The notes under the pieces: generated by a model | The model's database searches: none | What the model was told of the DNA's origin: nothing | What the model saw: the letters and a program-made list of their open reading frames with translations, nothing else | Shown: in pieces, positions 668-16,156 of the stretch | How positions within the stretch are numbered: the first letter of the stretch is position 1 | Layout: each line of letters starts with the position of its first letter | DNA from: Desulfallas thermosapovorans DSM 6562 | GTDB lineage: Bacteria; Bacillota; Desulfotomaculia; Desulfotomaculales; Desulfallaceae | Length of the DNA: 47,794 nt | Reading direction: 5' to 3' | Assembly (NCBI RefSeq): GCF_008124625.1 | Contig: NZ_VNHM01000020.1 | Location: forward strand, 1-47,794 | Translations under genes and position numbers: made by a program

Positions 668-3142
668 ATGGCTGAAAATAACAATGCCTGTTCCCAGGGA
701 TGCGTGGGGAACGGGCGGGAGCTCTCCAGGATTGGGTTCACGGTCAAAGGGATGAGTTGCGCTGCGTGCTCCGCCAGGTTGGAGAGGGGGCTGTCCGGGA
801 TGGAAGGGGTGAGTGCCGCCCGGGTTAACCTGGCCACTGAAAAGGCCACGGTTGATTATGACCCCGCTCTGGTCAAACCGGAACAAATGATTGAAAAAGT
901 AAGACAGTTCGGTTTTGACGTGCTGCAGGAAAAGCTGGACCTGGCCATTGGCGGGATGAGTTGCGCGGCCTGCGCCGCCAGGGTTGAAAAGGGATTGAAA
1001 TCCCTTCCGGGGGTGGCGGACGCCACTGTCAACCTGGCCACCGAAAAAGCCACCGTTACCTATTATCCCGGCCAGGTAAATGCTGCAGCCCTGGTCAATG
1101 CTGTGGAAAAGCTGGGTTACCAAGCACGCAAAATCGATGATCACTATACCGACCGTGAAAAGGATGAGCGGGATAGGGAAATAAAAAGGCAGCGGTTCCT
1201 GTTTATCTTCGCGGCAGTGTTCTCAGCCCCGCTATTTGCCGGTATGCTGGGTATGCTGGCTCCCCTGGAAGGCTTTTTCCCTCATATTTTGCACAATGCC
1301 CTGTTCCAGTTTTTCTTTGCCACCCCGGTACAGTTGGTGGCCGGTTACCACTTTTACCGCGATGCTTATACAGCCTTGAGGAACCGCAGCGCCAATATGT
1401 CGGTTCTGGTGGCCATGGGCACCAGCGTCGCTTATATTTACAGCACGGTGGTGACCTTTTGGGGGCATCGATTGGGATTGCAGCATGTTTATTTTGAGAG
1501 CAGTGCCGTGCTGTTGACCCTGATCCTGCTGGGTAAGATGTTGGAGGCCAGGGCCAAGGGCAAAACCTCCGAAGCCTTGAAAAAGCTGGCCGGTCTGCAG
1601 GCGAAAACTGCCCGGGTGATCCGGGGCGGCATCGAGGTTGATGTTCCGGTGGAAGAGGTGCTGGTGGGCGACCTGGTGGTAGTTCGCCCCGGCGAAAAGG
1701 TGCCGGTAGACGGAGTAATCAGGGAAGGGCATTCTACGGTGGATGAATCCATGCTCACCGGGGAAAGCCTGCCGGTGGATAAAAAGGAAGGCGATCTTGT
1801 CACCGGCGCCACTTTGAACAAGCTGGGCACCTTTCGTTTTGAAGCCCTGCGGGTGGGCCGGGACACAGCTCTGGCGCAGATTATTCGTTTTGTGGAAGAA
1901 GCCCAGAGCTCCAAGGCGCCCATTCAGCGGATGGCGGACGTTATTTCCGGGTACTTTGTGCCCGTGGTCACCGGCATTGCGGTGCTTACTTTCCTGGGCT
2001 GGTATTTTATAGGCGATCCCGGCAACGTGACCAGGGCGGTCTTAAACCTCACCGCCGTTTTGGTTATCGCCTGCCCCTGTGCCCTGGGTCTGGCCACCCC
2101 CACTTCCATTATGGTGGGGACAGGCAAAGGAGCGGAATACGGTATCCTGATCAAAGGCGGGGAACACCTGGAGCGGGCCCACCGGGTCAATGCCGTGGTT
2201 CTGGATAAAACAGGCACCATCACCCACGGGGAACCGGTTCTTACCGACTTGATCCCGGCCCCGGAGTTTGACGGCAGGGATGACTATTTGCTGCAGGTGG
2301 CCGGTGCGGCGGAGCAGGGTTCCGAGCACCCCGTTGCCCAGGCGGTGGTTAAAAAAGCAAGCGCCGGGCAGTTAGATGTGGGAACGGTCACTTCCTTCAC
2401 GGCGATTCCGGGCCGGGGCATCGCCGCTGAAGTAGGTGGGACGAGCGTCCTTTTGGGTACCCGCAGGCTGTTGCAGGAGAAGGGTATTGAGTTGCCCCAA
2501 GTTTTCGAAACCGAAATCCAAAGACTGGAGAACGAGGGTAAAACAGTCATGCTGATGGCTCTGGACGGGCTGCCGGCGGCTGTTTTGGCAGTGGCCGACA
2601 GCATCAAGGAAACTTCCGTGGAGGCAGTGGCTTTAATGCGCAAAATGGGCTTAGAGGTATGGATGCTCACCGGTGATAACCTGCTGACCGCCCGGGCCAT
2701 CGCCCGGGCGGCGGGAATAAGTGAGGATCACGTGCTGGCCCAGGTGCTGCCCGAGGATAAGGCCAAAAAAGTTTCCGAATTGCGGGCCAGGGGAATGGTG
2801 GTGGGAATGGTGGGCGACGGAATTAACGACGCTCCCGCCCTGGTCGAGGCCGATGTGGGTTTTGCCATCGGCAGCGGAACAGACATTGCCGTTGAGGCCG
2901 CTGATATCGTGCTGGTCCGGGGCGACCTGCGCAGCGTGGTGGACAGCATAGCCCTTAGCCGTGTCACCATCCGGAACATCAAGCAAAACCTGTTCTGGGC
3001 CTTAATTTACAACATCATCGGCATTCCCGTTGCCGCCCTGGGGTTTTTAAGCCCCGTGGTGGCCGGCACAGCCATGGCTTTCAGTTCCGTGTCGGTGGTT
3101 TCCAACGCCCTGCGCATCAAGCGATTCAGACCCCAGCGGTAG
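668..3142 (+). CDS. copA: Copper-exporting P1B-type ATPase CopA
   Basis: Integral membrane Cu(I) efflux ATPase of 824 aa, normal for the family with two N-terminal HMA domains. Metal sites GMSCAAC are at C31/C34 and C99/C102. The transmembrane metal site CPC is at residues 469-471 ([14 protein letters not shown]), the phosphorylated Asp is D513 in DKTGTIT, and the actuator TGES and hinge [12 protein letters not shown] motifs are present. C-terminal helices follow. An AGAGGT site precedes ATG 668. Together with csoR and copZ it forms a complete copper detoxification operon; the CPC motif fits Cu(I)/Ag(I) rather than Zn or Cd. Confidence 0.97.
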
Positions 3143-3987: not shown

Positions 3988-4080
3988 TTAGTAAAAGGAT
4001 ATTGTTGATAGGATAGTTGAAATCACTAGTATAACTGGGGATGGTAACGGGTGGCCTTGTGCCCCGGTTTTTTCTCGAAA

Positions 4081-4111
4081 CCTCTGAAACTGCGGCTGAC
4101 AGTTTTAGAGG
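4081..4111 (+). promoter_or_regulatory. Leader hairpin before first HPP gene
   Basis: CCTCTGAAACT (4081-4091) pairs with AGTTTTAGAGG (4101-4111) over 11 bp with one G-U pair and a 9-nt loop. It lies in the presumed 5' leader of the HPP gene. There is no clean U-tract after it, so terminator activity is uncertain. Confidence 0.45.
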
Positions 4112-4236
4112 TTTACTTGCTTACCGGTAACACGATTCAATTTTTTACTAATATAAGTAAAAAGCATGGGAAATTAGCGGCAAATATCCCCTTAGCCAGC
4201 ATCGGCTTAATATGGTACTTTCACGGGGGTACAATT

Positions 4237-4806
4237 ATGCATGAAACCATTGAGCAGGATGGGCGGCCGGTCCAGGCCAGAGCTTCAGAAAAATTAACAA
4301 ACTATCTTTGCAAAATGAAAGGCGGCAAGTGTACAGACCTGCCTAAAATATCCTGGTCCGGTTTGTTTTGTTCGGTTTTGGGTAGTTTTACCGGGCTTGG
4401 TTTATTAACTATATTATCGGATATGTATAAATTACCGCTATTATTGCCCTCATTTGGAGCCTCAGCCGCGCTATTATATGGTGCCTGCCATTTGCCCATG
4501 GCCCAGCCTAGAAATGTTATGGGCGGCCATTTGATATCTGCGTTTATAGGGGTACTGGCATATCAAATGTTTGGCAGTTCCTGGTGGGCTATTACTCTGG
4601 GGGTTACCATGGCTATTGTGGCTATGACGGTGACATATACGCTGCACCCACCCGGGGGAGCCACCGCTTTTCTGGCTGTTTATACCGGCCAGGACTTTGG
4701 ATTTATCATATCCCCCGTCGGAGTTGGTGCCGTGTGTTTGGTTTGCATAGCTTTGCTGGTTAATAATTTATCCAGTGAGCGAAAATACCCAAAATACTGG
4801 TACTAA
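4237..4806 (+). CDS. HPP-family membrane protein (copy 1)
   Basis: 189-aa membrane protein of the HPP family, named for the HPPGGATAFLAVY motif, which is present near the C-terminal third. About four hydrophobic segments are visible, with conserved LPSFGASA and MAQPRN motifs. Plant chloroplast and cyanobacterial relatives have been linked to nitrite transport, but the bacterial substrate is not settled. The start ATG 4237 is chosen because GGGGGT lies about 8 nt upstream and because it aligns exactly with the start of the second copy, giving identical lengths. The open frame upstream to 4051 does not look coding. A terminator at 4873-4905 ends the unit, so copies 1 and 2 are probably separately transcribed. 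Confidence 0.88.
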   Translation: MHETIEQDGRPVQARASEKLTNYLCKMKGGKCTDLPKISWSGLFCSVLGSFTGLGLLTILSDMYKLPLLLPSFGASAALLYGACHLPMAQPRNVMGGHLISAFIGVLAYQMFGSSWWAITLGVTMAIVAMTVTYTLHPPGGATAFLAVYTGQDFGFIISPVGVGAVCLVCIALLVNNLSSERKYPKYWY

Positions 4807-4965: not shown

Positions 4966-5016
4966 ACCACCCCTGGATTTAGTTATTATCAACAAAATAA
5001 CATTTCCAGGGGTGGT
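4966..5016 (+). promoter_or_regulatory. Hairpin sequestering the ribosome binding site of HPP copy 2
   Basis: ACCACCCCTGGA (4966-4977) is perfectly complementary to TCCAGGGGTGGT (5005-5016). An inner stem GTTATT (4982-4987) / AATAAC (4996-5001) extends the fold, with an 8-nt apical loop. The right arm contains the AGGGGTGG (5008-5015) that serves as the ribosome binding site for ATG 5024, so the folded leader should block translation. Whether it is an RNA switch or a DNA operator depends on where transcription starts. Confidence 0.6.
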
Positions 5017-5023
5017 AAAGCTT

Positions 5024-5593
5024 ATGCAGGGTACCATTAAACAGGACAGCTACCCGGTTCAAATCAAAGCCGGGGAAAAGCTGCTGAATTACCTTTGTAA
5101 AATGAGAGGCGGTAAATGCCCGAACCTGCCTAAAATGTCCCGGTCCGGTTTGCTTTGTTCAGCACTGGGTAGTTTTGCAGGGATCGGTTTGGTGGCCATA
5201 TTATCGGATATTTATAAATTGCCCCTTTTGTTGCCCTCATTTGGAGCTTCGGCAGTGCTATTATACGCCGCCTGCCACGTGCCCATGGCCCAGCCCAGAA
5301 ATGTTGTCGGCGGTCATTTGATATCCGCTTTTACGGGTGTGCTGGTGTATCAAATGTTTGGCGATGCCTGGTGGGCCATTGCCCTTGGGGTAACCCTGGC
5401 TATTGTGGCCATGACGGCAACATATACGTTACACCCACCCGGAGGGGCTACCGCCTTTTTGGCCGTCTATACCGGCCAGGACTTTGGATTCATTATATCC
5501 CCGGTGGGGGTTGGTGCCCTTTGTTTGGTTTTCATAGCCCTGCTGGTCAATAACTTGTCCAGTGAACGTAAATACCCTGATTACTGGTACTAA
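5024..5593 (+). CDS. HPP-family membrane protein (copy 2)
   Basis: 189-aa paralog of the gene at 4237, the same length and identical at most positions, including LPSFGASA, MAQPRN and HPPGGATAFLAVY. Divergence is concentrated in conservative changes in the membrane segments and in the N-terminal 30 residues. It clearly arose by tandem duplication. ATG 5024 is selected by the AGGGGTGG site 8 nt upstream and by alignment to copy 1; an ORF extension to 5012 is not needed. It differs from copy 1 in its control region, which has an FNR/CRP-like box and a site-burying hairpin, suggesting anaerobic or nitrogen-oxide-linked control. The substrate is unknown; a nitrite or anion role is a guess from distant relatives. 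Confidence 0.88.
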   Translation: MQGTIKQDSYPVQIKAGEKLLNYLCKMRGGKCPNLPKMSRSGLLCSALGSFAGIGLVAILSDIYKLPLLLPSFGASAVLLYAACHVPMAQPRNVVGGHLISAFTGVLVYQMFGDAWWAIALGVTLAIVAMTATYTLHPPGGATAFLAVYTGQDFGFIISPVGVGALCLVFIALLVNNLSSERKYPDYWY

Positions 5594-6123: not shown

Positions 6124-6543
6124 TTAAGAAAATTTTTTAAAAATATCCATAAACTCACTTAACGATTTCTTGATATCCCTGCCTTGGTCCAGGTCATTTT
6201 TAATATGGTCGGCCAGGTGGCAGCCCAGCATGGTAATACCCACCCGGTTGATGGCGGCCTTGATGGCCGCCAGTTGAATGACGATATCACCGCAACTGCG
6301 GTAATCCTGTACCATCTTTTGCACACCCCGCACCTGCCCCTCGATCTTTTTCAGCCTGCTGAGCACTTCTTTTATAGTGGTCGGGTCTCTTTCCAAAAGT
6401 GCGTTGGGATCCGGCCCGTTTACCAATATATCATTTATGCCCGATTGTCCGGCGGCAATTTCCTGGTTGAAATGTTCTTGATCATTATGGTTGTTGTGGC
6501 CGGTGCCGTTTTTTTTATGTGCATGGTTTTGTTTGGCTCGCAT
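6124..6543 (-). CDS. His-rich CsoR/RcnR/CstR-family repressor
   Basis: 139-aa DUF156-family regulator, longer than usual because of a roughly 55-residue N-terminal tail rich in His (H7, H9, H16, H19, H24). The core SRLKKIEGQVRGVQKMVQ begins near residue 62. Ligand positions read C84 (RSCGD), then C108-H109 and H113 (GCHLADH). C-H-H at the family ligand positions resembles nickel/cobalt sensors of the RcnR type, whereas a pair of Cys and a sulfur-trafficking target operon would fit persulfide sensing as in CstR. It is divergent from the TusA-Hdr operon, and two matching operators lie between them, so it most likely represses both itself and that operon. ATG 6543 is preceded by GGAGAG. The inducer is unknown. 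Confidence 0.85.
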   Translation of the reverse strand: MRAKQNHAHKKNGTGHNNHNDQEHFNQEIAAGQSGINDILVNGPDPNALLERDPTTIKEVLSRLKKIEGQVRGVQKMVQDYRSCGDIVIQLAAIKAAINRVGITMLGCHLADHIKNDLDQGRDIKKSLSEFMDIFKKFS

Positions 6544-6616
6544 AAGTATCTCTCCGTTTTATAAGGTATTAAAGTACTGGTGCTATGCGTTTTTTACAAA
6601 AATCAAAGCTATACCA

Positions 6617-6668
6617 ATACCCCGTAGGGTATATGTCTAATTATACCCAATATTTTCATCACATTCAA
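6617..6668 (-). promoter_or_regulatory. Promoter and operator for the CsoR-family gene
   Basis: On the minus strand TTGAAT (6668-6663) and TATAAT (6645-6640) are 17 bp apart. Just downstream lies ATACCC-CGTA-GGGTAT (6617-6632), a perfect 6-4-6 inverted repeat with GC tract flanked by AT ends, in the style of CsoR-family operators. Its position near the start of transcription fits autorepression. Confidence 0.7.
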
Positions 6669-6691
6669 GCTTGGAGTTAATAATATTAATC

Positions 6692-6742
6692 TTGACGAAT
6701 TCAGGGAAGTATAGTATTTTAATAATATACCCTTGGGGGTAT
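6692..6742 (+). promoter_or_regulatory. Promoter and operator for the TusA-Hdr operon
   Basis: TTGACG (6692-6697) and TATTTT (6715-6720) are 17 bp apart, followed at once by ATACCC-TTGG-GGGTAT (6727-6742). The operator has the same half-sites and 4-bp spacer as the one at 6617-6632. A repressor bound here would overlap the transcription start. Confidence 0.68.
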
Positions 6743-6889
6743 GGGTATGGGAGTATTGGTGGGTTGCCATATGAATTTAGCAGGCTATGCCCCGGCATTG
6801 CGGCTTTTGTGAGCAACCCCCGGTTTGATACCCTGATGTGGTATAAAACATATCTCAGTTCATGATAATTAATTAAGGAGGCAATGCCA

Positions 6890-7144
6890 ATGACGCCTGA
6901 AGAACTGAAAAACATGCAAGTCGACAAAGTGGTTGATGCCAGAGGTACTTCCTGTCCCGGACCGATTCTGGCGGCTAAAAAGTCCATCGTGGAAGTACAA
7001 GTGGGCCAGGTTATGGAAGTACTGGCTTCGGACGCGGGAACCAAAAAAGACCTGCCGGCCTGGTGCAAAAAAACAGGGCATGAATTTCTAGGCATGTTCG
7101 AGGATGCCGGCGATATCAAGCTATACATTAAAAGGACGAAGTAA
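6890..7144 (+). CDS. TusA-like sulfur carrier protein
   Basis: 84-aa protein of the TusA/SirA fold that carries sulfur as a persulfide on a conserved Cys. The family motif SCPGPIL is at residues 21-27 with the carrier C22. ATG 6890 lies 8 nt after AAGGAGG; the in-frame ATG at 6884 is only 2 nt from that site. It is the first gene of the Hdr operon, two bases before the next gene, which argues that this Hdr complex acts on protein-bound sulfane sulfur rather than on the CoM-CoB heterodisulfide of methanogens. Second-family possibilities such as YedF-type carriers cannot be excluded. Confidence 0.88.
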   Translation: MTPEELKNMQVDKVVDARGTSCPGPILAAKKSIVEVQVGQVMEVLASDAGTKKDLPAWCKKTGHEFLGMFEDAGDIKLYIKRTK

Positions 7145-7146
7145 AT

Positions 7147-7575
7147 ATGGCCGGGACAACTAAAGAAGGCAAGGGTTTTGTACCGAAAATCCTTGCCTTT
7201 TCCACAAACAACATCTCCGATCCGGGCATTGATCTGGCGGGTAGCTCTCATATGCATTACCCTCCCAGCGTAATGGTGGTTAGTATGCCCTGCACCAGTG
7301 GTATCAAACCCGGTTGGATATTGCATGCGGTGGAAAAAGGTTTTGACGGTATTTTCATTGCTGCTGACGGTGAAGAATGTGCTTATCTGCCTGACTGCTC
7401 GGAAAGGGCTTCAAACATCGTTAAGAATGCCCAGGCGTTACTCCAACAAAACGGTTATGAACCCGAAAGAATTAAAATGTCGGCTATTTGTTCGGTATGC
7501 GCCGAGCCCTTTACCAATCAAATTAAAGCATTTTATCAGATTATTCAAAAAATGGGACCAGCCAGGAAGGGATAG
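7147..7575 (+). CDS. MvhD/FlpD-like electron-transfer subunit with altered cysteines
   Basis: 142-aa protein matching the MvhD/FlpD family, which passes electrons into HdrA. Recognisable stretches are the DLAGSSHMHYPPSV segment, KPGWILHAVEKGFDGIFIAADGEECAY, and YEPERIKM. The usual first CxxC (CNWC) is replaced by TNNI and the usual GCHPGDC region reads ADGEEC, so only part of the normal iron-sulfur ligand set remains; a CSVC motif is present near the C-terminus where the family normally has none. The cluster may be lost or rebuilt. It starts at ATG 7147, two bases after the TusA gene, and ends 4 bp before the HdrA gene, so coupling to HdrA is likely. Confidence 0.75.
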   Translation: MAGTTKEGKGFVPKILAFSTNNISDPGIDLAGSSHMHYPPSVMVVSMPCTSGIKPGWILHAVEKGFDGIFIAADGEECAYLPDCSERASNIVKNAQALLQQNGYEPERIKMSAICSVCAEPFTNQIKAFYQIIQKMGPARKG

Positions 7576-7579
7576 AGCT

Positions 7580-10387
7580 ATGAATTATGATATTGTGGTT
7601 ATCGGTAGTGGTATTGGAGGCATGGAATCGGCACTGAAGCTGGGCGACATGGGTTATAAGGTGCTGGTGGTGGAAAAGGAACCCAGTGTGGGCGGTAAAA
7701 TGATTTTACTCAGCAAGGTCTTTCCCACGCTGGACTGTGCCAGCTGTATTTCCACTCCCAAAATGGCGGCTACTACCCATCACCCAAACATCGATGTATT
7801 GGTATATTCAGAAGTTGAGCAAGTAAGGCGAGATAAATCAGGCCGTTTTAAGATACGGGTGCGCCAAAAGCCTACCTATGTAAACCAGACCCTCTGTACG
7901 GGCTGCCGCCAGTGTGAGATGAACTGCAACGTCGCGGTGCCCGACCAGTATAATTTTGACCTGGTGGCCCGGCGGGCGGCTTACATAGCTTTCCCCCAGG
8001 CCGTGCCCAAAAAGGCGGTTATTGAGCGAGCCGGCAGCTCGCCGTGTTCCTATACATGCCCGGCGGGTATTAAGGCTCACGGCTATGTGGCCCTGACCCG
8101 GGCCGGCAAGTATCGAGAGGCCTTTGAACTGATTCTGAAAACCACTCCGGTGGTCGGCAGCCTGGGCCGGGCTTGCTACGCGCCCTGTGAAACGCAGTGC
8201 ACCCGGAGCGGTATCGAAGGGCCTTTGCCCATCAGGAAAATTAAACGATTTATCGCAGATACTTACTATAAAGAACATCCTGTTGGCCAAAAAATCAGCT
8301 CCGAAGCTTCCGGCGTTCCGGAAAGTAACGGTAAGAAAGTGGCCATTGTGGGTTCAGGCCCGGCGGGACTTACGGCGGCAATGCACCTGGCCAGGCAGGG
8401 GTACCGGGTTAAGATACTGGAAGCGGCGCCCCGGCCCGGGGGCATGCTGCGGTTGGCCATACCGGCCTACCGGCTGCCCAAAGATGTACTGGATCGGGAT
8501 ATTCAAAACGTTACTGCGCTGGGCGTGGAGATTGAAACCGGGGTCCGGGTGCAGGACCTTGCTGACTTGAAAAACCAGGGTTTTGATGCCATATTCCTGG
8601 CCACCGGTACTCCCGGGAGTAGAAAGCTGCAGCTGGAGGGGGAAGATTTGCCCGGCGTGATGACTGCGCTGGATTTTCTGCGGCAAGTTAACCTGGGCGG
8701 AGCTGATCCCGCTGCCGCCATGGCGGGAGAAAACAAGCCGGGCGAAAATAACCCAGCCGAAAATAACCCGGCCGGTGCCGTATCCCTTAACGGGAAAACC
8801 GTTGTGGTGGTGGGTGGCGGTAACGTAGCCATCGATTCGGCCCGGGTGGCCGTGCGGCTGGGGGCTAAAAGGGTTATTGTGCAGTACCGGCGCAGCCGGG
8901 CTGAAATGCCCGCCCATGATTGGGAAATTGAGGCCGCCGAAAAGGAAGGTGTTCAGTTTCAGTACCTCAGTGCCCCGCAAAAGTTTACCGGTTCCAATGG
9001 CCGCCTGTCCGAAATTGAGTGCATCCAAATGGAACTTGGCCGGCCCGGTGCCGGTGGCCGTAAAAAACCGGTGCCGGTAAAGGGCTCCGAACACCGGCTG
9101 CCTGCGGATTTAGTGATTACCGCCGTAGGGCTGGTACCGGATACCCGGTGCTGGTCGGATAGCCTTAAATTACAACCCGACGGTACCATTATTGTTAACC
9201 CGGAAACGCTGCAAACATCAACGCCTTACATATTTGCAGGCGGGGATGTGGTCACCGGGCCTTCCATGATTGTGGATGCGGTGGGCCAGGGCAGGCGGGC
9301 CGCCTTTTTCATCGACCGTTTTTTAAGTGGCCGGAAGATGTCAGGGGCGGATTATGATTACCGCTTGCCTGCCGTAGATAAACAGCAGGTACTTGACCGG
9401 CAGCAGAGTTACCGTGTGCTGGCTCCGGTGGCCGGACGGGATACGACTTCTATGCAGCCTGTGCGGGTCAGTTGCTTTGCCGAAGTTGAGCAGTCCCTCA
9501 CCGAAGAGGAAGCGCGCTACAGCGCAGGCCGCTGCCTGGATTGCGGCGTGTGCTCCGAGTGTCAGCAATGTATTTCGGTGTGCCCGGCGGGGGCTATTAA
9601 TATGACCATGCAGGAAAAGCATGTGGAGGTGGAGGCGAAGTCAGTTATTGTTTCCACCGGCTTTAAACTATTTGATGCCGCCCTCAAGCCTCAGTACGGC
9701 TACGGGCAGTATAAAAACGTGATCAGCGGCATGCAAATGGATAGGCTGCTGGCACCTACCCGGCCATATAACACCGTGCTAAGGCCCCATGACGGTAAAG
9801 TGCCCGACAACATTGCCTATGTGCTGTGCACCGGTTCCCGGGATTGCACGGTGGATAACCCGCTGTGCTCCAGAGTGTGCTGTATGTACTCGGTGAAGCA
9901 AAACCAGCTGATTATGGGGGCGCTGCCCCTGGCGGATGTGACGGTTTACTATATCGACGTACGGGCCTTCAGCAAGGGATATGAGGAATTTTACCAGCAG
10001 GCCGGCGCCATGGGAGCCAATTTTGTCAAAGGCCGGGTGGCCCGTATCGAAGAAAAAGACGATGGTAATCTGGTGCTTTTCTACGAAGATATCGACAATG
10101 GCGGTCAATTGCGCCAGGCGGAGCATGATTTAGTGGTGCTGTCGGTGGGATTGCTGCCCAATACCGAGGCCTTGCAGCTATTTGCGGGGGAACAGCTTGA
10201 AAACGACGAATTCTTCTACGTTAAAGAGGTTGATGAGGACATCAACCCGGGCCAGACCAGTATCCCTGGAGTATTTGTGGCCGGGACTGCATCCGGTGCC
10301 AGGGATATCCCCGATTCCATACTGCATGCCGGTGCGGCGGCGGCCCAAGCCGCAGCTTACGTGGAAAGGACAAGGATGAGCAAATGA
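7580..10387 (+). CDS. HdrA-like protein with internal GltD/NfnB-type NAD(P)H module
   Basis: 935-aa flavin and iron-sulfur protein. Domains in order: HdrA-type FAD fold (GSGIGGMESALKLG near residues 7-20); a CxxCxxCxxxC cluster site (C106, C109, C112, C116); a glutamate-synthase small-subunit-like part with Cys-rich start (CSYTCPAGIKAHGYV near 154), FAD site (AIVGSGPAGLTAA near 255) and NAD(P) site (VVVVGGGNVAIDSARVA near 408); ferredoxin-like Cys cluster near 651; and an HdrA C-terminal part with CTGSRDC and CSRVCC. ATG 7580 follows the previous stop by 4 bp; the longer open frame back to 7298 overlaps another gene and is not used. The NAD(P)H module inside HdrA suggests NAD(P)H as electron donor or acceptor for the complex, possibly by flavin-based bifurcation. 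Overlaps the next HdrA by 4 bp. Confidence 0.88.
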   Translation: MNYDIVVIGSGIGGMESALKLGDMGYKVLVVEKEPSVGGKMILLSKVFPTLDCASCISTPKMAATTHHPNIDVLVYSEVEQVRRDKSGRFKIRVRQKPTYVNQTLCTGCRQCEMNCNVAVPDQYNFDLVARRAAYIAFPQAVPKKAVIERAGSSPCSYTCPAGIKAHGYVALTRAGKYREAFELILKTTPVVGSLGRACYAPCETQCTRSGIEGPLPIRKIKRFIADTYYKEHPVGQKISSEASGVPESNGKKVAIVGSGPAGLTAAMHLARQGYRVKILEAAPRPGGMLRLAIPAYRLPKDVLDRDIQNVTALGVEIETGVRVQDLADLKNQGFDAIFLATGTPGSRKLQLEGEDLPGVMTALDFLRQVNLGGADPAAAMAGENKPGENNPAENNPAGAVSLNGKTVVVVGGGNVAIDSARVAVRLGAKRVIVQYRRSRAEMPAHDWEIEAAEKEGVQFQYLSAPQKFTGSNGRLSEIECIQMELGRPGAGGRKKPVPVKGSEHRLPADLVITAVGLVPDTRCWSDSLKLQPDGTIIVNPETLQTSTPYIFAGGDVVTGPSMIVDAVGQGRRAAFFIDRFLSGRKMSGADYDYRLPAVDKQQVLDRQQSYRVLAPVAGRDTTSMQPVRVSCFAEVEQSLTEEEARYSAGRCLDCGVCSECQQCISVCPAGAINMTMQEKHVEVEAKSVIVSTGFKLFDAALKPQYGYGQYKNVISGMQMDRLLAPTRPYNTVLRPHDGKVPDNIAYVLCTGSRDCTVDNPLCSRVCCMYSVKQNQLIMGALPLADVTVYYIDVRAFSKGYEEFYQQAGAMGANFVKGRVARIEEKDDGNLVLFYEDIDNGGQLRQAEHDLVVLSVGLLPNTEALQLFAGEQLENDEFFYVKEVDEDINPGQTSIPGVFVAGTASGARDIPDSILHAGAAAAQAAAYVERTRMSK
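8729..8773 (+). repeat. Three 15-bp in-frame tandem repeats in the HdrA-GltD gene
   Basis: Units at 8729-8743, 8744-8758 and 8759-8773 encode ENKPG, ENNPA, ENNPA. Units two and three differ at one base. They form a short Asn/Pro-rich loop just before the NAD(P)-binding fold. Confidence 0.85.
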
Positions 10388-12123
10388 GCGATCGTAGAAT
10401 AGGCGTTTACATTTGTCATTGCGGCGGAAATATATCCGATTACGTGGACGTGGAAAAAGTGCGCCGGGCTGTGCAAGACGAGCCGGGTGTAGTGGTGGCC
10501 AAGACCGCCATGTTTACCTGTTCCGATGCCACCCAGCAGGAGATGGTACAGGATATTGAGGAGCAGCAGCTGGACGGATTGGTGGTGGCGTCCTGTTCCC
10601 CCAAGCTGCATTTGTTTACCTTCCGGGAAGTGGCCAAAAGAGCGGGTTTAAATCCTTACCAGTATACCCAGGTGAATGTGCGGGAGCAGTGTTCATGGAC
10701 TCATACCGATGATTACGCCGGGGCCACGGCCAAAGCAATTCGCCTGGTGCGGGGCGGCATTGCCCGGACGAGGTTAACCGAACCCCTGCAGCCCATTAAA
10801 ATCGACACTGTACCCAGGGTGCTGGTGGTGGGCGCGGGTATAGCCGGCATGCGGGCAGCTGTGGGCCTTGCGGATTTGGGGCTGGCAGTGCTGTTGATTG
10901 AGCGGGAACCTGTGGTTGGTGGCAGGGTGGCCGCCTGGGGTGCCATGTACCCCCATGGTAAAAACGGCCGTCAACTAATTGCCCGGTTGAATGAAGAAAT
11001 AAAACAAAGGGAAAACATAACTCTGTTCACCTGTGCCGAATTGGTGGAGAAATCAGGCAGCATTGGCAACTTTAATATAAAAATTCGAGTAGGTGGCAAC
11101 AGCGGTCAAGGTCAAGAAATTATAACCGCCCGGGTGGGTTCGATCATCGTGGCTACGGGCTTCGATAATTACCAGCCTGTGGCGGGTGAGTACGGCTATG
11201 GTATTGACGGGGTGCTTACCCTGGCGGAGTATAAGGAATTGCTGGACAGTACTGAAGGCAAGTTGTTCCGCCACGGGCGGGAAATTAAAGACGTGGTATA
11301 TGTTTACTGCGTGGGCAGCCGGCAGCAGTCCGGAGAAAACCCCAACCGTTATTGCTCCCGCTATTGCTGTAACGCCGCCGTGCACGCCTCCATCGAAGCC
11401 GTCGATAAAAATCCCGGCCTGCACCAGTATCACCTGTTCAGGGATATGCGTACTTACGGCAAGTATGAGTTGCTCTACAACCAGGCACGGGAAAAGGGGG
11501 CCGTGTTCCTGCGGTTTGACCACCAGGAGCCTCCGGTAGTGGAAAAGATGGCGGATGGTAAGCTAATGGTTAAAGTGAGAGATTTGCTGACCTATAGTGA
11601 ACAAATTGATATTGCTGCCGATGTGGTGGTGCTGGTAACGGGTATGGTACCCCGCGACAACGGCAGTCTGGTGGATGTCCTCAAACTGCCCCTAGGACAG
11701 GACAAATTTTTCAATGAAATACACCCCAAACTGCGTCCGGTGGAAACAGTGGTGGACGGCGTGTTTATTTGCGGTGCCTGCCAGGGACCCAAGAATTCCT
11801 CGGAAAGCGTGGCCTCAGCCCTGTCGGCGGTGACCCAGAGTGCCTCCATATTAAAGAAGGGCTTTGTGGAATTGGAACCCTTGATTGCTCAAGTGGATCC
11901 GGAGGTTTGCCGGTGGTGTGGAGAGTGTACCAGTGCCTGCCCCTACGGAGCCATCGAGCAGGTGCAGTACCAGGGCCGGGCCGTGGCACGGGTAAACGAA
12001 GCGGTTTGTAAAGGTTGTGGCGGCTGCGCCCCGCTGTGCCCCGCCGGGGCCATAGATCTCAAGGGGTATACGGACGAACAAATGAAATCCATGATCGATG
12101 CCTTTCTAAAGGAGATTGTTTAA
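10384..12123 (+). CDS. hdrA: HdrA-like FAD/iron-sulfur protein
   Basis: 579-aa HdrA homolog. The N-terminal HdrA domain has CHCGGNISD (C11, C13) and the CSPKLH motif near residue 79. The FAD site VLVVGAGIAGMRAAVGLADLG is near residue 145, with VVGGRVAAWG after it. Two [4Fe-4S] ferredoxin motifs close the protein, CRWCGECTSACPYG (C509 onward) and CKGCGGCAPLCPAG (C542 onward). In Hdr complexes this subunit holds the bifurcating or electron-distributing flavin. ATG 10384 overlaps the end of the upstream HdrA-GltD gene by 4 bp, implying translational coupling and a stable pair of HdrA-type subunits in one complex. Tandem HdrA subunits are unlike the classic HdrABC set. Confidence 0.92.
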   Translation: MSDRRIGVYICHCGGNISDYVDVEKVRRAVQDEPGVVVAKTAMFTCSDATQQEMVQDIEEQQLDGLVVASCSPKLHLFTFREVAKRAGLNPYQYTQVNVREQCSWTHTDDYAGATAKAIRLVRGGIARTRLTEPLQPIKIDTVPRVLVVGAGIAGMRAAVGLADLGLAVLLIEREPVVGGRVAAWGAMYPHGKNGRQLIARLNEEIKQRENITLFTCAELVEKSGSIGNFNIKIRVGGNSGQGQEIITARVGSIIVATGFDNYQPVAGEYGYGIDGVLTLAEYKELLDSTEGKLFRHGREIKDVVYVYCVGSRQQSGENPNRYCSRYCCNAAVHASIEAVDKNPGLHQYHLFRDMRTYGKYELLYNQAREKGAVFLRFDHQEPPVVEKMADGKLMVKVRDLLTYSEQIDIAADVVVLVTGMVPRDNGSLVDVLKLPLGQDKFFNEIHPKLRPVETVVDGVFICGACQGPKNSSESVASALSAVTQSASILKKGFVELEPLIAQVDPEVCRWCGECTSACPYGAIEQVQYQGRAVARVNEAVCKGCGGCAPLCPAGAIDLKGYTDEQMKSMIDAFLKEIV

Positions 12124-12124
12124 T

Positions 12125-12367
12125 ATGCAGGGTACAGTGAGAGATTTACGGGAAGTTATCCGGGAAGAGATGTTCATGCGGGATAAAATACTGAAAGTAC
12201 TGAGGGACGGTCCCAAAACAGTGCCGGAAATTGCTAAAACCCTGGGCTATCCCTCCGGTGAGGTAATGTACTGGGTGATGGGCATGCGCAAATACGGGCA
12301 TGTGGCGGAAACAGAGGAAGAAGACGGCTTTTATAAATACAAAGCGGTAACGGGGGAGGGAAATTAA
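12125..12367 (+). CDS. Small winged-helix-like protein of the Hdr operon
   Basis: 80-aa protein with a helix-turn-helix-like pattern (DGPKTVPEIAKTLGYPSGEV, residues about 28-47) followed by a short beta wing region rich in Glu. It starts at ATG 12125, about 8 nt after AAGGAG, one base after the previous stop, and its own stop abuts the HdrC start. No Cys ligands are present, so it is not an electron carrier. It could be a structural subunit or a local DNA-binding regulator; position inside the operon favours the former, the fold the latter. I do not recognise a named family. Confidence 0.65.
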   Translation: MQGTVRDLREVIREEMFMRDKILKVLRDGPKTVPEIAKTLGYPSGEVMYWVMGMRKYGHVAETEEEDGFYKYKAVTGEGN

Positions 12368-12670
12368 ATGGCCCGGGTTAATCCCGAATTTGCCGGTGCG
12401 GTTAAAGAGTCCAAGGCTTTTAACGCCTCGGCCTGCATGAACTGCGGGGTGTGCAGCGCTGTATGTCACATGGGTATAGAATTACTGCCCAGAAAACTGT
12501 TTCGGTATGTTTTACTGGGCATTGAAGAAAAGGTGCTGGCCAATGTGGAAACCATTTACTCTTGCCTGTTATGTAAAATGTGCGAAGTAAACTGTCCAGC
12601 GTCGGTGCATATTGCCGAGAATGTACGGTTTTTAAGACATTATATTAATAAAAAAGTTTATCAACTTTAA
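12368..12670 (+). CDS. hdrC: HdrC-like iron-sulfur subunit
   Basis: 100-aa two-cluster ferredoxin-like protein. It has CMNCGVCSAVCHMG and CLLCKMCEVNCPAS, each a CxxCxxCxxxC set for one [4Fe-4S] cluster, about 50 residues apart as in HdrC. Its job is to relay electrons from HdrA clusters to HdrB. It follows the small winged-helix-like gene without a gap and precedes the HdrB gene by 13 bp, with GGAGA before that start. Confidence 0.88.
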   Translation: MARVNPEFAGAVKESKAFNASACMNCGVCSAVCHMGIELLPRKLFRYVLLGIEEKVLANVETIYSCLLCKMCEVNCPASVHIAENVRFLRHYINKKVYQL

Positions 12671-12683
12671 GGAGAGTAAAGCC

Positions 12684-13640
12684 ATGCCGTTGCCAACTGG
12701 TGATACCATTGGAATATTAGCGGATAATTTAACCTTAAGGCAATCCGTACTGCCCATACCCGCCAAAAGCGCCACCAGGTGGGCCGCGGGCCTGGAACTG
12801 CCCCGGGGAAGCAAAACCGTGCTCTACACGGGGTTAATGTACCAGATGATCCCCTACATTGCCGCCATGAACAAGGCCCAGGAGGATATCGAAGATTCCT
12901 TTTTAGTTAACTTTATTGGTTTGGGCCGGCGGATTAACAAGTTAATTAATGTTTCCAGCATCATGGCCAGGCCTTCTAAAACCATGCAGCAGGCCTATAA
13001 CCAGATACTGGTTAATATTGCCCGGTTGCTTCAACAGGCGGGGGTTCAATTTGGCTACCTATATGAAGAGGAATTATATTCCGGGGCGCTTATATATGAC
13101 CTGGGTATGGATCATGTATTAAAGGAACACGCCCAAAGGGTATATGCAACTTTTAAAAAATACGGGGTAAAAAAAATAATCACCGTGGATCCCCATACCA
13201 CCAATATGCTGCGGTCGGTTTACCCCACCTTGATTAACGGATATGACTTGACGGTGCAAAGCTACATGGAAGTGCTGGTGGAACGTAATATAAGGCCCCG
13301 AAGCGATCTGAATACGGCAGTGGTCATGCACGATTCCTGCGTATACGCCCGCTATGAAAATGTTTTAAATGAACAGCGTACTTTGCTGGCCAGGGCGGGA
13401 GTCACCGTTAAGGAGCCGGCCAATGCGGGCAAATTTACCATGTGCTGTGGTGGCCCGGCGGAGTCGTTATTTCCCAAAAAAGCCAGGGACCAGGCGCAAA
13501 AAAGGGTGGAGCAAATTAAAAAAGTGGCTTTAAACGCTGTAACCATGTGCCCCATTTGCTATGTAAACCTGCAAAAAGCGGCCGGGGGAGCGGTGCAATT
13601 GGAGGATATCTCAAGTTACCTGGTACGTGCCTATTGTTAG
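12684..13640 (+). CDS. hdrB: HdrB-like CCG-domain protein, one motif degenerate
   Basis: 318-aa protein with the C-terminal CCG domain complete: C219 (HDSC), C254-C255-G (CCGGP), C289 and C292 (CPIC), the CX31-39CCX35-36CXXC pattern that binds the noncubane [4Fe-4S] cluster in HdrB. The N-terminal CCG domain lacks its cysteines: the usual TGC motif reads YTGLMYQ and no CCG follows. The catalytic disulfide or persulfide reductase site should thus reside in the C-terminal half. It starts at ATG 12684 after AAGGAGAG. The stop overlaps the longest frame of the DsrE2 gene. Partner of HdrC and the two HdrA proteins. Confidence 0.85.
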   Translation: MPLPTGDTIGILADNLTLRQSVLPIPAKSATRWAAGLELPRGSKTVLYTGLMYQMIPYIAAMNKAQEDIEDSFLVNFIGLGRRINKLINVSSIMARPSKTMQQAYNQILVNIARLLQQAGVQFGYLYEEELYSGALIYDLGMDHVLKEHAQRVYATFKKYGVKKIITVDPHTTNMLRSVYPTLINGYDLTVQSYMEVLVERNIRPRSDLNTAVVMHDSCVYARYENVLNEQRTLLARAGVTVKEPANAGKFTMCCGGPAESLFPKKARDQAQKRVEQIKKVALNAVTMCPICYVNLQKAAGGAVQLEDISSYLVRAYC

Positions 13641-13662
13641 TACTGCGAAAACGAAAGGGGGG

Positions 13663-14145
13663 ATGGCTTTGAGTACCACTAAAAAAACTATCATTGTCTT
13701 CAGCGGCGATTTAGATAAAGTCATGGCAGCTTTTATTATCGCCAACGGGGCTGCGGCCATGGGCGACGATGTGACCATGTTCTTTACCTTCTGGGGGCTT
13801 AACGCATTACGCAAGCCTGAAAAAATAAAGGTGAAGAAAAGCTTTTTACAGGGGATGTTCGGTAAAATGATGCCCCGGGGGGCGGATAAACTGGGTATCT
13901 CTAAAATGAATTTCGGCGGCATGGGGGCGGCGATGATGAAAATCGTTATGAAGCAGCACAACGTCACTACCCTGCCCCAGTTGATCCAAACTGCCAAAGA
14001 GCAGGATATTAAAATGATTGCCTGTGCCATGTCCATGGATGTAATGGGCATCAAGGAAGAAGAGCTTATTGACGGGCTGGAGTTTGCCGGTGTGGCTACC
14101 TACCTGGCCGAGGCCGACGAGTCTAACGTAAATTTGTTTATCTAA
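13663..14145 (+). CDS. DsrE2-like sulfur-transfer membrane-associated protein
   Basis: About 160-aa protein of the DsrE/DsrF superfamily, closest to DsrE2. It has the N-terminal strand KTIIVFSGDLDKVMAAFIIAN, the MFFTFWGLNAL segment and the Cys motif ACAMSMDVMGI (C121 from this ATG), the presumed persulfide site. The start is uncertain: ATG 13663 abuts a GGGGGG run, while TTG 13669 is 6 nt from it and may be the true start; GTG 13627 overlaps hdrB and lacks support. DsrE2 and TusA commonly accompany sulfur-oxidising Hdr and Dsr systems as persulfide relays, so finding them at both ends of this operon strengthens the sulfur reading. Confidence 0.85.
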   Translation: MALSTTKKTIIVFSGDLDKVMAAFIIANGAAAMGDDVTMFFTFWGLNALRKPEKIKVKKSFLQGMFGKMMPRGADKLGISKMNFGGMGAAMMKIVMKQHNVTTLPQLIQTAKEQDIKMIACAMSMDVMGIKEEELIDGLEFAGVATYLAEADESNVNLFI

Positions 14146-14953: not shown

Positions 14954-16156
14954 ATGTGTATAAAATTGTTGCAGGCGGCACTGTTTGACCTGGATGGAAC
15001 TCTACTAAAAGTAAATACCAGTGATTTTATGAAGGAGTATTTTAAAAAGATAGCCCTGGCCGCGGCACCGGTGGTTGAGCCGGGCCGGTTCACCCGGGCT
15101 CTTTTAGACAGCACCAATGTTATGATGACCAATCGCGATCCGGCATTGACCAATGCCGAGGTATTCTGGAGTGACTTTCGCGCACGTTTAGCCGACTGCC
15201 ATGAGGCTTTGGAACCACGGATGGACGATTTTTACGCCAGTGAGTTCAAGGGGTTGGCCCGGATGGCCGTTGCCTCCCCCCTGGGCCGGCAGGTGGTGCA
15301 GGCAGCGCTGGACCGGGGGTTGCAAATAGCCCTGGCCACCAACCCGTTGTTTCCCCGCACCGCCATTTATGAACGGATGGTTTGGGCCGGGGTGGCTGAT
15401 TTAGCCTGGGAACTGGTGACCACTTATGAGGAAATGCATTCCTGCAAACCACACCCTGAATATTACCAGGAGATTGCCCGGCGTCTGGGGCTGTCTCCGG
15501 AGGATTGCCTGATGGTGGGCAACGATGTGGAAAAGGACATTGCGGCTGCGGCGGCGGCCGGTATGCGCACCTATCTGGTTACCGATTACATGGTTAACCC
15601 CGGCCAGGAAGATTACCGGAAAGTGGCCGACTGGTACGGCACCCTGGATGAACTGGCCGGATGGCTGGCCGGTGCCGATTGGGAGCAGGTCAGCCTGGAC
15701 GGCCAGGCCCTGGCCAGGGTGCGCCGGTATTTAAAAGAATTTGATGCCGGTCTTGCGCCGCTGGTGTTAAACAAAGCCACCGGCACTGTGGAGGAAGCGG
15801 CCCGGGCTCTGGGGGTGGAACCCGGTATGATTGCCAAAACATTATTATTCCGGGCCGGTGACGGTTACGGGCTTTTTGTGGTGGCGGGGGATGTACGGGT
15901 TAGCACGAAAAAAGTTAAAGAACTGCTGGGCGCCAAGCCCAGTATGGCCACACCGGAGGAAGTGGAGAAAATCACGGGTTACCGAATAGGCGGGGTGTGC
16001 CCCTTTGCCCTGGCCACAGAAGTGCCGGTTTACCTGGATTCATCCATGCAGCGGTTCGACGTGATTTACCCTGCGGCAGGTACCGCCCACTCCGCGCTGC
16101 CCATTAACTTCGAAAAACTGAAGGCCATTACACGGGGCACGGTGGTGGAGTGCTGA
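14954..16156 (+). CDS. HAD-family phosphatase fused to a YbaK-like deacylase domain
   Basis: 400-aa two-domain protein. Residues 1-235 are a haloacid-dehalogenase-type phosphatase: motif I DLDGT with D12 and D14, motif II ATNP, a conserved CKPHPEYY lysine, and motif IV VGNDVEKDI. Residues about 250-400 are a YbaK/ProX-type domain (ALGVEPGMIAKTLLFR, RVSTKKVKELLGAKPSMATPEEV split by turns, and PVYLDSSMQ), a fold that hydrolyses mischarged aminoacyl-tRNA such as Cys- or Ala-tRNA(Pro). The two activities are normally on separate proteins. ATG 14954 directly follows AAAGG, too close to be ideal; TTG 14966 is an alternative. A terminator follows. Confidence 0.88.
   Translation: MCIKLLQAALFDLDGTLLKVNTSDFMKEYFKKIALAAAPVVEPGRFTRALLDSTNVMMTNRDPALTNAEVFWSDFRARLADCHEALEPRMDDFYASEFKGLARMAVASPLGRQVVQAALDRGLQIALATNPLFPRTAIYERMVWAGVADLAWELVTTYEEMHSCKPHPEYYQEIARRLGLSPEDCLMVGNDVEKDIAAAAAAGMRTYLVTDYMVNPGQEDYRKVADWYGTLDELAGWLAGADWEQVSLDGQALARVRRYLKEFDAGLAPLVLNKATGTVEEAARALGVEPGMIAKTLLFRAGDGYGLFVVAGDVRVSTKKVKELLGAKPSMATPEEVEKITGYRIGGVCPFALATEVPVYLDSSMQRFDVIYPAAGTAHSALPINFEKLKAITRGTVVEC

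Follow-up and report, generated by a model that had tools for sequence, protein, structure and literature searches.

A gene module of TusA, FlpD, two HdrA proteins and DsrE2 in Desulfallas thermosapovorans: a candidate NAD(P)H-linked oxidoreductase of carrier-bound sulfane sulfur

We have analysed a stretch of 47,794 nucleotides from Desulfallas thermosapovorans DSM 6562 (contig C20 of a 2.96 Mb genome), hereafter called the window, which encodes an operon of eight genes in the order TusA-FlpD-HdrA(GltD)-HdrA-winged helix-HdrC-HdrB-DsrE2. Comparison of the encoded proteins gives an about even chance, in our estimate, that this operon specifies an NAD(P)H-linked oxidoreductase derived from type II Qmo and HdrL proteins and acting on sulfane sulfur bound to TusA and DsrE proteins. 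The gene set recurs with intact cofactor motifs in several bacterial phyla, with and without the genes of sulfate reduction, and a QmoC-like membrane protein takes the place of HdrC and HdrB in a large part of the loci.

Gene order, distribution and conserved residues

The eight genes lie on the same strand over positions 6884-14145, separated by gaps of -14 to +13 bp, and a gene of the CsoR family (6124-6543) is divergent from them (Table 1). Family assignments were made with Pfam and NCBIfam profiles, several of the NCBIfam matches being under the model cut-offs, and they agree in position and family with the initial annotation for all the eight genes and the divergent regulator. A search over 60 genomes, the genome of the window included, identified orthologues of HdrA(GltD), referred to as HdrAG, in 19 other genomes, and all the eight genes are present in identical order in 17 of these. 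The two remaining loci stop at contig ends: L038 starts in FlpD and L037 ends in HdrAG, the rest of the latter module being found on L128. With the complete set in order in 17 of the 19 relatives and the remaining pair truncated at contig ends, the gene order is not due to chance.

The gene for the small winged-helix protein has strong matches (E-value ≤ 1e-32) in exactly those 20 of the 60 genomes that have the module, and weak matches (8e-16 to 4e-4) in 7 further genomes. It was identified in 7 of 398 sampled genomes of the window's phylum, one of the matches being divergent (1e-15), and in 6 of 396 sampled genomes of the phylum of Actinotalea, known hosts being included in both counts. A contig scan yielded at least 64 loci; of the 64 listed, three weak ones (L119-L121) were excluded and 61 hold the module, whole or truncated at a contig end. 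Adding the 19 relatives and the window itself gives at least 81 loci, among which L058 duplicates L041, L062 duplicates L047, and L112 has no GltD insert. The conserved gene order in relatives, which had been set as a check of the initial annotation, is in this way found well beyond the close kin. The titles of the loci point to Bacillota, Actinomycetota, Chloroflexota, Dormibacterota, one metagenome-assembled genome (MAG) of Armatimonadetes and one MAG of Paludibacter, and the distribution is rare yet scattered. The module on the contig titled Armatimonadetes (L063) groups with Desulfofundulus in the tree and its genome has dsrA and aprA; this is either a recent transfer or an error of binning or labelling.

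Components were counted with a codon-usage gene caller in 57 loci having at least 2 kb upstream and at least 5 kb downstream, after removal of the duplicates and of L112. FlpD, HdrAG and HdrA are found in 57 of 57, TusA and a DsrE-family protein in 56 each, and the winged-helix protein in 54. The TusA of L070, the winged helices of L073, L079 and L115 and the HdrB of L093 were missed by the caller and are visible by tblastn. With TusA and DsrE-family proteins each in 56 of the 57 loci, the sulfur carriers are regarded as constant parts of the module, the DsrE-family protein being in many Chloroflexi loci a short DsrE and not DsrE2. Ten genes from upstream and downstream of the module in other loci proved to be mostly housekeeping genes.

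The residues expected of sulfur carriers are retained, in keeping with the initial reading of both ends of the operon: the carrier cysteine of the CPxP motif is kept in 90 of 91 aligned TusA sequences and the active cysteine of DsrE, corresponding to Cys133 of DsrE2, in 98 of 98. DsrE2 of the window scores 104 bits against NF047629, under the cut-off of 210. The 83-residue protein, earlier described as winged-helix-like, has Pfam matches under cut-off only; its AlphaFold2 model (pLDDT 85.7) has winged-helix topology and resembles ArsR/SmtB-type folds in the Protein Data Bank (PDB), which upholds the description.

Twenty-one cysteines of HdrAG are invariant in 70 of 70 aligned sequences. The motif GGGNxAxDxAR is present in 64 of the 70, followed by a YRR-type sequence in 47, including that of the window, and by CLE or SLE in 17. 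The residues following the nucleotide motif serve as a rule for preference, YRR for NADP and CLE/SLE for NAD, which suggests that HdrAG versions of both preferences may exist. Profiles and structural relatives both support the NAD(P)H module proposed earlier for this HdrA: among the PDB relatives of the insert are chains of Nfn alpha, GltD and dihydropyrimidine dehydrogenase, and among those of the rest of HdrAG are HdrA chains. The HdrAG of L051 and L052 is of the window type except in the NAD(P) half of its insert, where a different version with YCLEKEGEL and extra residues stands, to all appearance a domain-level exchange.

Table 1. Features of the operon and its regulatory region (positions in the window)
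Feature	Positions	Strand	Basis
CsoR-family repressor, 139 aa, His-rich N-terminus	6124-6543	-	PF02583 E=1.1e-23
Operator-like palindrome TACCC-N4-GGGTA nearer the CsoR gene	6618-6631	.	exact match
Operator-like palindrome TACCC-N4-GGGTA nearer tusA	6728-6741	.	exact match
TusA sulfur carrier, 86 aa, SCPGP motif	6884-7144	+	PF01206 E=3.6e-23
FlpD/MvhD-like iron-sulfur protein, 142 aa	7147-7575	+	PF02662 E=1.4e-31; alignment
HdrA with GltD insert (HdrAG), 935 aa	7580-10387	+	NF009410 and NF040770, both under cut-offs
GltD/Nfn-like NAD(P)H insert in HdrAG, residues about 163-651	8066-9532	+	not in QmoA-like relatives
Second HdrA, 579 aa, N-terminal CHCGGNI, C-terminal 2x[4Fe-4S]	10384-12123	+	NF040770 E=7e-148, under cut-off; alignment
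Small winged-helix protein, 83 aa, module marker gene	12116-12367	+	AlphaFold2 model; ArsR/SmtB-type winged helix-turn-helix matches in PDB
HdrC, 100 aa, two [4Fe-4S] motifs	12368-12670	+	TIGR03290 E=1.1e-10 (under cut-off), PF13534
HdrB, 318 aa, single C-terminal CCG domain	12684-13640	+	PF02754 E=1e-13 at 213-297 only; alignment
DsrE2 sulfur carrier/transferase, 172 aa, Cys133	13627-14145	+	PF13686 E=3.4e-67

The exchangeable arm and the relatives of the module

The inclusion of HdrC and HdrB in the set, correct for the window, does not hold for the family as a whole. Among the 81 loci listed, 39 have HdrB, 32 have one QmoC-like protein replacing both HdrC and HdrB, and 10, mostly on cut contigs, were left unassigned by the caller. 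The QmoC-like proteins are 350-402 residues long, match the QmoC profile with E-values ≤ 6.5e-51 in the four tested, which is under the model cut-off, and have 5-7 hydrophobic segments in all the 32 cases. A fusion of HdrC with HdrB, considered for a protein of this length, is ruled out by the QmoC profiles and the hydrophobic segments. A tree built with FastTree from 70 HdrAG and 5 outgroup sequences requires the HdrB/QmoC label to change at least twice. The profile matches, the hydrophobic segments and the repeated change on the tree together mark this arm as a variable exit for electrons. No CCG protein is seen in the operons of the QmoC form, so that the sulfur chemistry, if any, is placed on the shared core. 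HdrB of the HdrABC heterodisulfide reductases has two CCG domains; PF02754 is matched once in HdrB of the window, which has a single PDB relative (E=4e-13).

The divergent matches of the winged-helix protein led to clusters of the order FlpD-HdrA'-HdrA-winged helix-QmoC in the loci L122, L124 and L126, and to incomplete clusters of FlpD-HdrA'-HdrA type in L123 and L125, L122 and L123 both being from the genome G041. The three complete clusters share with the module the gene order and the winged helix (E=1e-10 to 1e-15), and differ from it in having neither the GltD insert nor TusA or DsrE2 inside the cluster. Their QmoA-like HdrA' of 423-437 residues aligns to residues of about 1-162 and 652-930 of HdrAG with 42-51% identity. 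A type II Qmo complex is characterised by FlpD, two subunits of HdrA type and either QmoC or HdrBC encoded together, and by a closer kinship to HdrA than to the QmoAB of type I. Clusters termed type II QmoAB(C) are named for Ammonifex degensii and Vulcanisaeta moutnovskia in a passage of PMC10504309 that leaves their role open, and we infer from host and layout that L122, L124 and L126 are of this type. Type II Qmo clusters, which have no NAD(P)H insert, and not sHdr, would then be the closest relatives found of the module. No AprAB or Sat was detected among ten proteins tested around these loci. The second such locus of G041 (L123:5150-12708) has no QmoC, and genes similar to DsrE2 and to acetophenone carboxylase lie nearby.

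An apparently intermediate form is encoded in the MAG titled Paludibacter sp. (L112, 7740-13559), in which DsrE2 and TusA precede FlpD-HdrA'-HdrA-winged helix-QmoC-like in the order of the module, but HdrA' has 440 residues and no GltD insert. The module thus appears to be a type II Qmo to which sulfur carriers have been added, together with an NAD(P)H insert in HdrA' (residues of about 163-651); the order of these gains is read from the single locus L112, whose branch in the tree is long.

Fusions of HdrA with GltD accompanied by MvhD are known as HdrL in Desulfobacterium autotrophicum (PMC2702500) and Desulfurivibrio dismutans (PMC12142623). They resemble the module in the HdrA/GltD fusion beside MvhD/FlpD, and a link to NADH has been proposed for HdrL. 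As described in these papers HdrL is one large protein beside Fdh or Dsr genes, whereas the module divides the corresponding parts over two HdrA proteins, and the passages on HdrL make no mention of TusA, DsrE2 or the winged helix. The genome of the window itself has HdrL-like paralogues in open frames of up to about 1500 residues with about 40% identity.

The sHdr system, to which the initial annotation had compared the operon, shares with it the association of Hdr subunits with TusA and DsrE proteins, and to this extent the comparison stands. The sHdr clusters (hdrC1B1A-hyp-hdrC2B2 with lbpA) include TusA and DsrE-type proteins according to PMC6067878, and the cluster of Thermomicrobium is described with EtfAB (PMC6776052). 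Two HdrB/HdrC pairs and lipoate proteins characterise sHdr, whereas the module has one HdrC, one HdrB with a single CCG domain and no protein of the lipoate type. Some match to PF01597 (GCV_H) is present in 27 of 30 genomes, none closer than about 17 kb to the operon where the position of the operon is known. The genome of the window has no full-length GcvH or LbpA, only a partial GCV_H (57 of 122 positions, in a frame of 86 residues) on another contig, as the earlier remark on the missing lipoate proteins would have it. Membership of sHdr is rejected on the lack of LbpA and on the one CCG domain.

QmoC alternates with HdrBC also in Qmo, with QmoAB-HdrBC occurring in Gram-positive sulfate reducers (passages in PMC10504309 and PMC3569383). 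The module shares this alternation with type I Qmo, which acts with AprAB, and with QmoAB-HdrBC, and is unlike them in having GltD and sulfur carriers added and no apr gene in the operon. AprAB as the partner is rejected on that ground and on the lack of aprA over cut-off in the 47 hosts outside the window's order. The YTD cluster, YedE-TusA-DsrE (PMC12998232), likewise combines TusA with a DsrE-family protein; membership is rejected because the operon is without YedE and PF04143 has a match in only 13 of 61 genomes. A YedE-like stretch (PF04143) beside another TusA lies on contig C2 of the window's genome (40910-41567, L055), away from the operon. Each protein type in the module is known; of their assembly, the winged-helix marker and the swap of the arm no description was found in the literature searched, supplements and most subscription journals being outside that search.

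Proposed reaction, hosts and alternative readings

We infer a physical complex and, with it, substrate, direction, bifurcation and regulation along the following lines. A complex of flavin and iron-sulfur proteins would give electrons to, or take them from, the sulfane sulfur carried by TusA and DsrE2. FlpD, HdrAG, HdrA and the winged-helix protein would form its constant core, the GltD insert would bind NAD(P)H, and the exchangeable arm, HdrC-HdrB or the QmoC-like protein, would pass electrons to or from a second partner, which may be a thiol/disulfide or other soluble partner in the HdrB form and menaquinone in the QmoC form. The likeliest reaction would be the two-electron persulfide/sulfide step, TusA-S-SH + 2e- + 2H+ <-> TusA-SH + H2S. 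Because the potential of the sulfur couple lies between those of NAD(P)H and the second partner, flavin-based bifurcation or confurcation would be natural. Precedents exist in the Nfn-like archaeal sulfide dehydrogenase (Sud), which reduces polysulfide with NADPH, and in DsrL, the NAD(P)-linked GltD-fold partner of DsrAB. In the sulfate reducer of the window mainly NADPH-dependent reduction of sulfane sulfur would be expected, and the direction may differ between hosts.

Many of the hosts are MAGs, so that absences of genes are soft, and the order boundary for the loci of the scan was judged from titles and the tree. All the 20 genomes of the window's order that hold the module have a dsrA over cut-off, as have the genomes of L059, L060 and L063; among 16 further genomes tested there is no such dsrA, with weak matches in four. 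An aprA over cut-off occurs in 22 of 72 genomes, namely 18 of the 20 of the order, G041 and the genomes of L059, L060 and L063; of the two exceptions in the order, G024 has fragments under cut-off and G047 has none. Outside the order none of the 47 hosts has aprA over cut-off, with one weak match. The haem-copper oxidase gene (COX1) shows another distribution: it is found in 33 of the 72 genomes, all of them among these 47 hosts, and neither in the 20 genomes of the order nor in G041 nor in the four of L059-L061 and L063. The earlier designation of the complex as anaerobic is too narrow for such hosts. By a tally made by hand, COX1 occurs in 12 of 16 HdrB-type and 21 of 31 QmoC-type hosts outside the order, and a rule by which the HdrB form belongs to anaerobes and the QmoC form to aerobes is rejected on these counts. 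Of 61 genomes 22 have a DsrC-family match, but of the 16 HdrB-type hosts outside the order a single one does, and DsrC as an obligatory partner of HdrB is rejected accordingly. On these counts the module is considered independent of Dsr, Apr and DsrC.

Several observations weigh against the proposed NAD(P)H-linked oxidoreductase. TusA and DsrE2 are hallmarks of sulfur oxidation, and the frequency of COX1 outside the order favours the oxidative direction there. In four related Chloroflexi (L073, L076, L096 and L115) a gene for TauE/SafE, of the sulfite exporter family, is found together with its DUF1634 partner 9-10 kb downstream from where HdrAG starts, and rhodanese genes are also near the module. 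No DsrE-family gene was found in L070 by the gene caller or by tblastn. In the Ammonifex-like genomes the type II Qmo-like clusters do not include TusA, so that the core can function in its absence. The QmoC-like protein is assumed from its family to contact quinone, and the AlphaFold2 model of HdrAG is poor (pLDDT 65.4, pTM 0.42) and uninformative on a bifurcating flavin. As separate observations, an ArsR-DsrE-TusA-DsrE set comes after TauE/SafE-DUF1634 in L073, on the opposite strand, and weak matches to the TauE profile occur in five other loci.

The main rival, unlikely in our view and still to be taken seriously, is an oxidation like that of sHdr, in which the persulfide sulfur of TusA/DsrE2 is converted to sulfite and the electrons pass via GltD to NAD(P)+ and to quinone or HdrB, the sulfite going to Dsr in a disproportionation in sulfate reducers and being exported elsewhere. 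The companionship of TusA and DsrE-type proteins with Hdr subunits in sHdr clusters (PMC6067878), COX1 and the TauE and rhodanese genes of the four Chloroflexi loci agree with it, as does the listing of Desulfofundulus thermobenzoicus, in a strain other than that of L059, as a disproportionator in PMC12998232. Such an oxidation has to contend, in the window, with the partial GCV_H as the only trace of a lipoate carrier and with the one CCG domain, and in the 32 loci of the QmoC form with the absence of the proposed sHdrB-type sites, HdrB being replaced there. Nor do the tested hosts outside the order, except L063, have aprA or dsrA over cut-off.

A general electron-transfer complex of Qmo-like kind, carrying electrons from NAD(P)H to quinone, HdrB or AprAB, with TusA and DsrE2 as thiol regulators or assembly factors, appears improbable. 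The core does resemble type II Qmo, clusters of which exist without TusA, and HdrL-MvhD pairs have been proposed for other electron routes (PMC2702500); the near-constant presence of both carriers with their cysteines, and the lack of aprA over cut-off in the 47 hosts outside the order, speak against it.

The regulatory region, neighbouring genes and significance

The CsoR-family protein has 5 histidines in its first 40 residues, the nearest relative having 2; the family and the His-rich N-terminus in the initial annotation are correct, the richness being peculiar to the window protein. Among the 19 relatives, 10 have a CsoR gene next to the operon and for 7 none was found there, while an ArsR-type gene is upstream in many other loci, two of them confirmed by Pfam. 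The ligand columns read Cys, then C at +24, H at +25 and H at +29, the relatives varying at +24 and +29. Copper-sensing CsoR has the pattern C-H-C, and CstR has C and, at +29, C without the histidine; by these rules the ligand set of the window protein appears to be neither.

The palindrome TACCC-N4-GGGTA has exactly two exact matches in the window, both in this intergenic region (Table 1), and 5 matches with one mismatch against 2.4 expected. Pairs are also present in G005, G009, G010 and G012, one site starting 134-213 bp upstream of tusA. Twelve CsoR-TusA intergenic regions, taken from relatives that are not independent of one another, contain 12 palindromes where single-letter shuffles give 0.07; the 12 lie in 6 of the regions and the other 6 have none. 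The regulator gene and palindromes suggest an inducible system, in which the operon would be derepressed once the CsoR-family repressor leaves the two predicted operators. An operon for metal or electrophile stress under a sensor of CsoR/RcnR/FrmR type, its Hdr part keeping protein thiols reduced, would suit the divergent His-rich regulator, its C-H-H pattern, which we take to be RcnR-like, and the CsoR-type palindromes, but it is very improbable given the relatives with no CsoR gene found beside the module, the ArsR-type genes in other loci and the absence of any metal transporter recurring in the module among the loci listed.

Another gene of the CsoR family, this one with the complete C-H-C pattern (148-402, +), adjoins a heavy-metal P-type ATPase read from the sequence (668-3142, +; CxxC domains and DKTGT). 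The two probably form a csoR-copA pair for copper and lie about 6 kb away from the operon's own, atypical CsoR gene. At 4051-4806 and 5012-5593 (+) two near-duplicate small membrane proteins are encoded in tandem; they carry the motif HPPGGATAFLAVYTGQ and presumably belong to the HPP family. Downstream of the operon a HAD-type hydrolase, which appears to be fused to a YbaK/ProX-like editing domain, is encoded at 14954-16156 (+), and the same gene follows the module in L034 and L039.

Returning to the proposed oxidoreductase, we put forward as a doubtful extension that the module represents a third Hdr-type route for sulfane sulfur beside rDsr and sHdr, flavin-bifurcating and with three partners, NAD(P)H, the sulfur bound to TusA/DsrE, and either the quinone pool through QmoC or a soluble partner of HdrB. 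Its hosts would be sulfate reducers on the one hand and, on the other, Actinomycetota and Chloroflexota in which no dsrA or aprA was found and of which many encode a haem-copper oxidase. If true, a sulfur-linked electron pathway in Actinomycetota, Chloroflexota and sulfate-reducing Bacillota would have been missed by the markers dsrAB, aprAB, LbpA/sHdr and YTD. A testable class of substrates would be gained for the type II Qmo clusters, the role of which the relevant passage of PMC10504309 leaves open, and the swaps of HdrC/HdrB with QmoC and of YRR with CLE/SLE would provide a comparative system for the choice of electron partners by Hdr and Qmo proteins.

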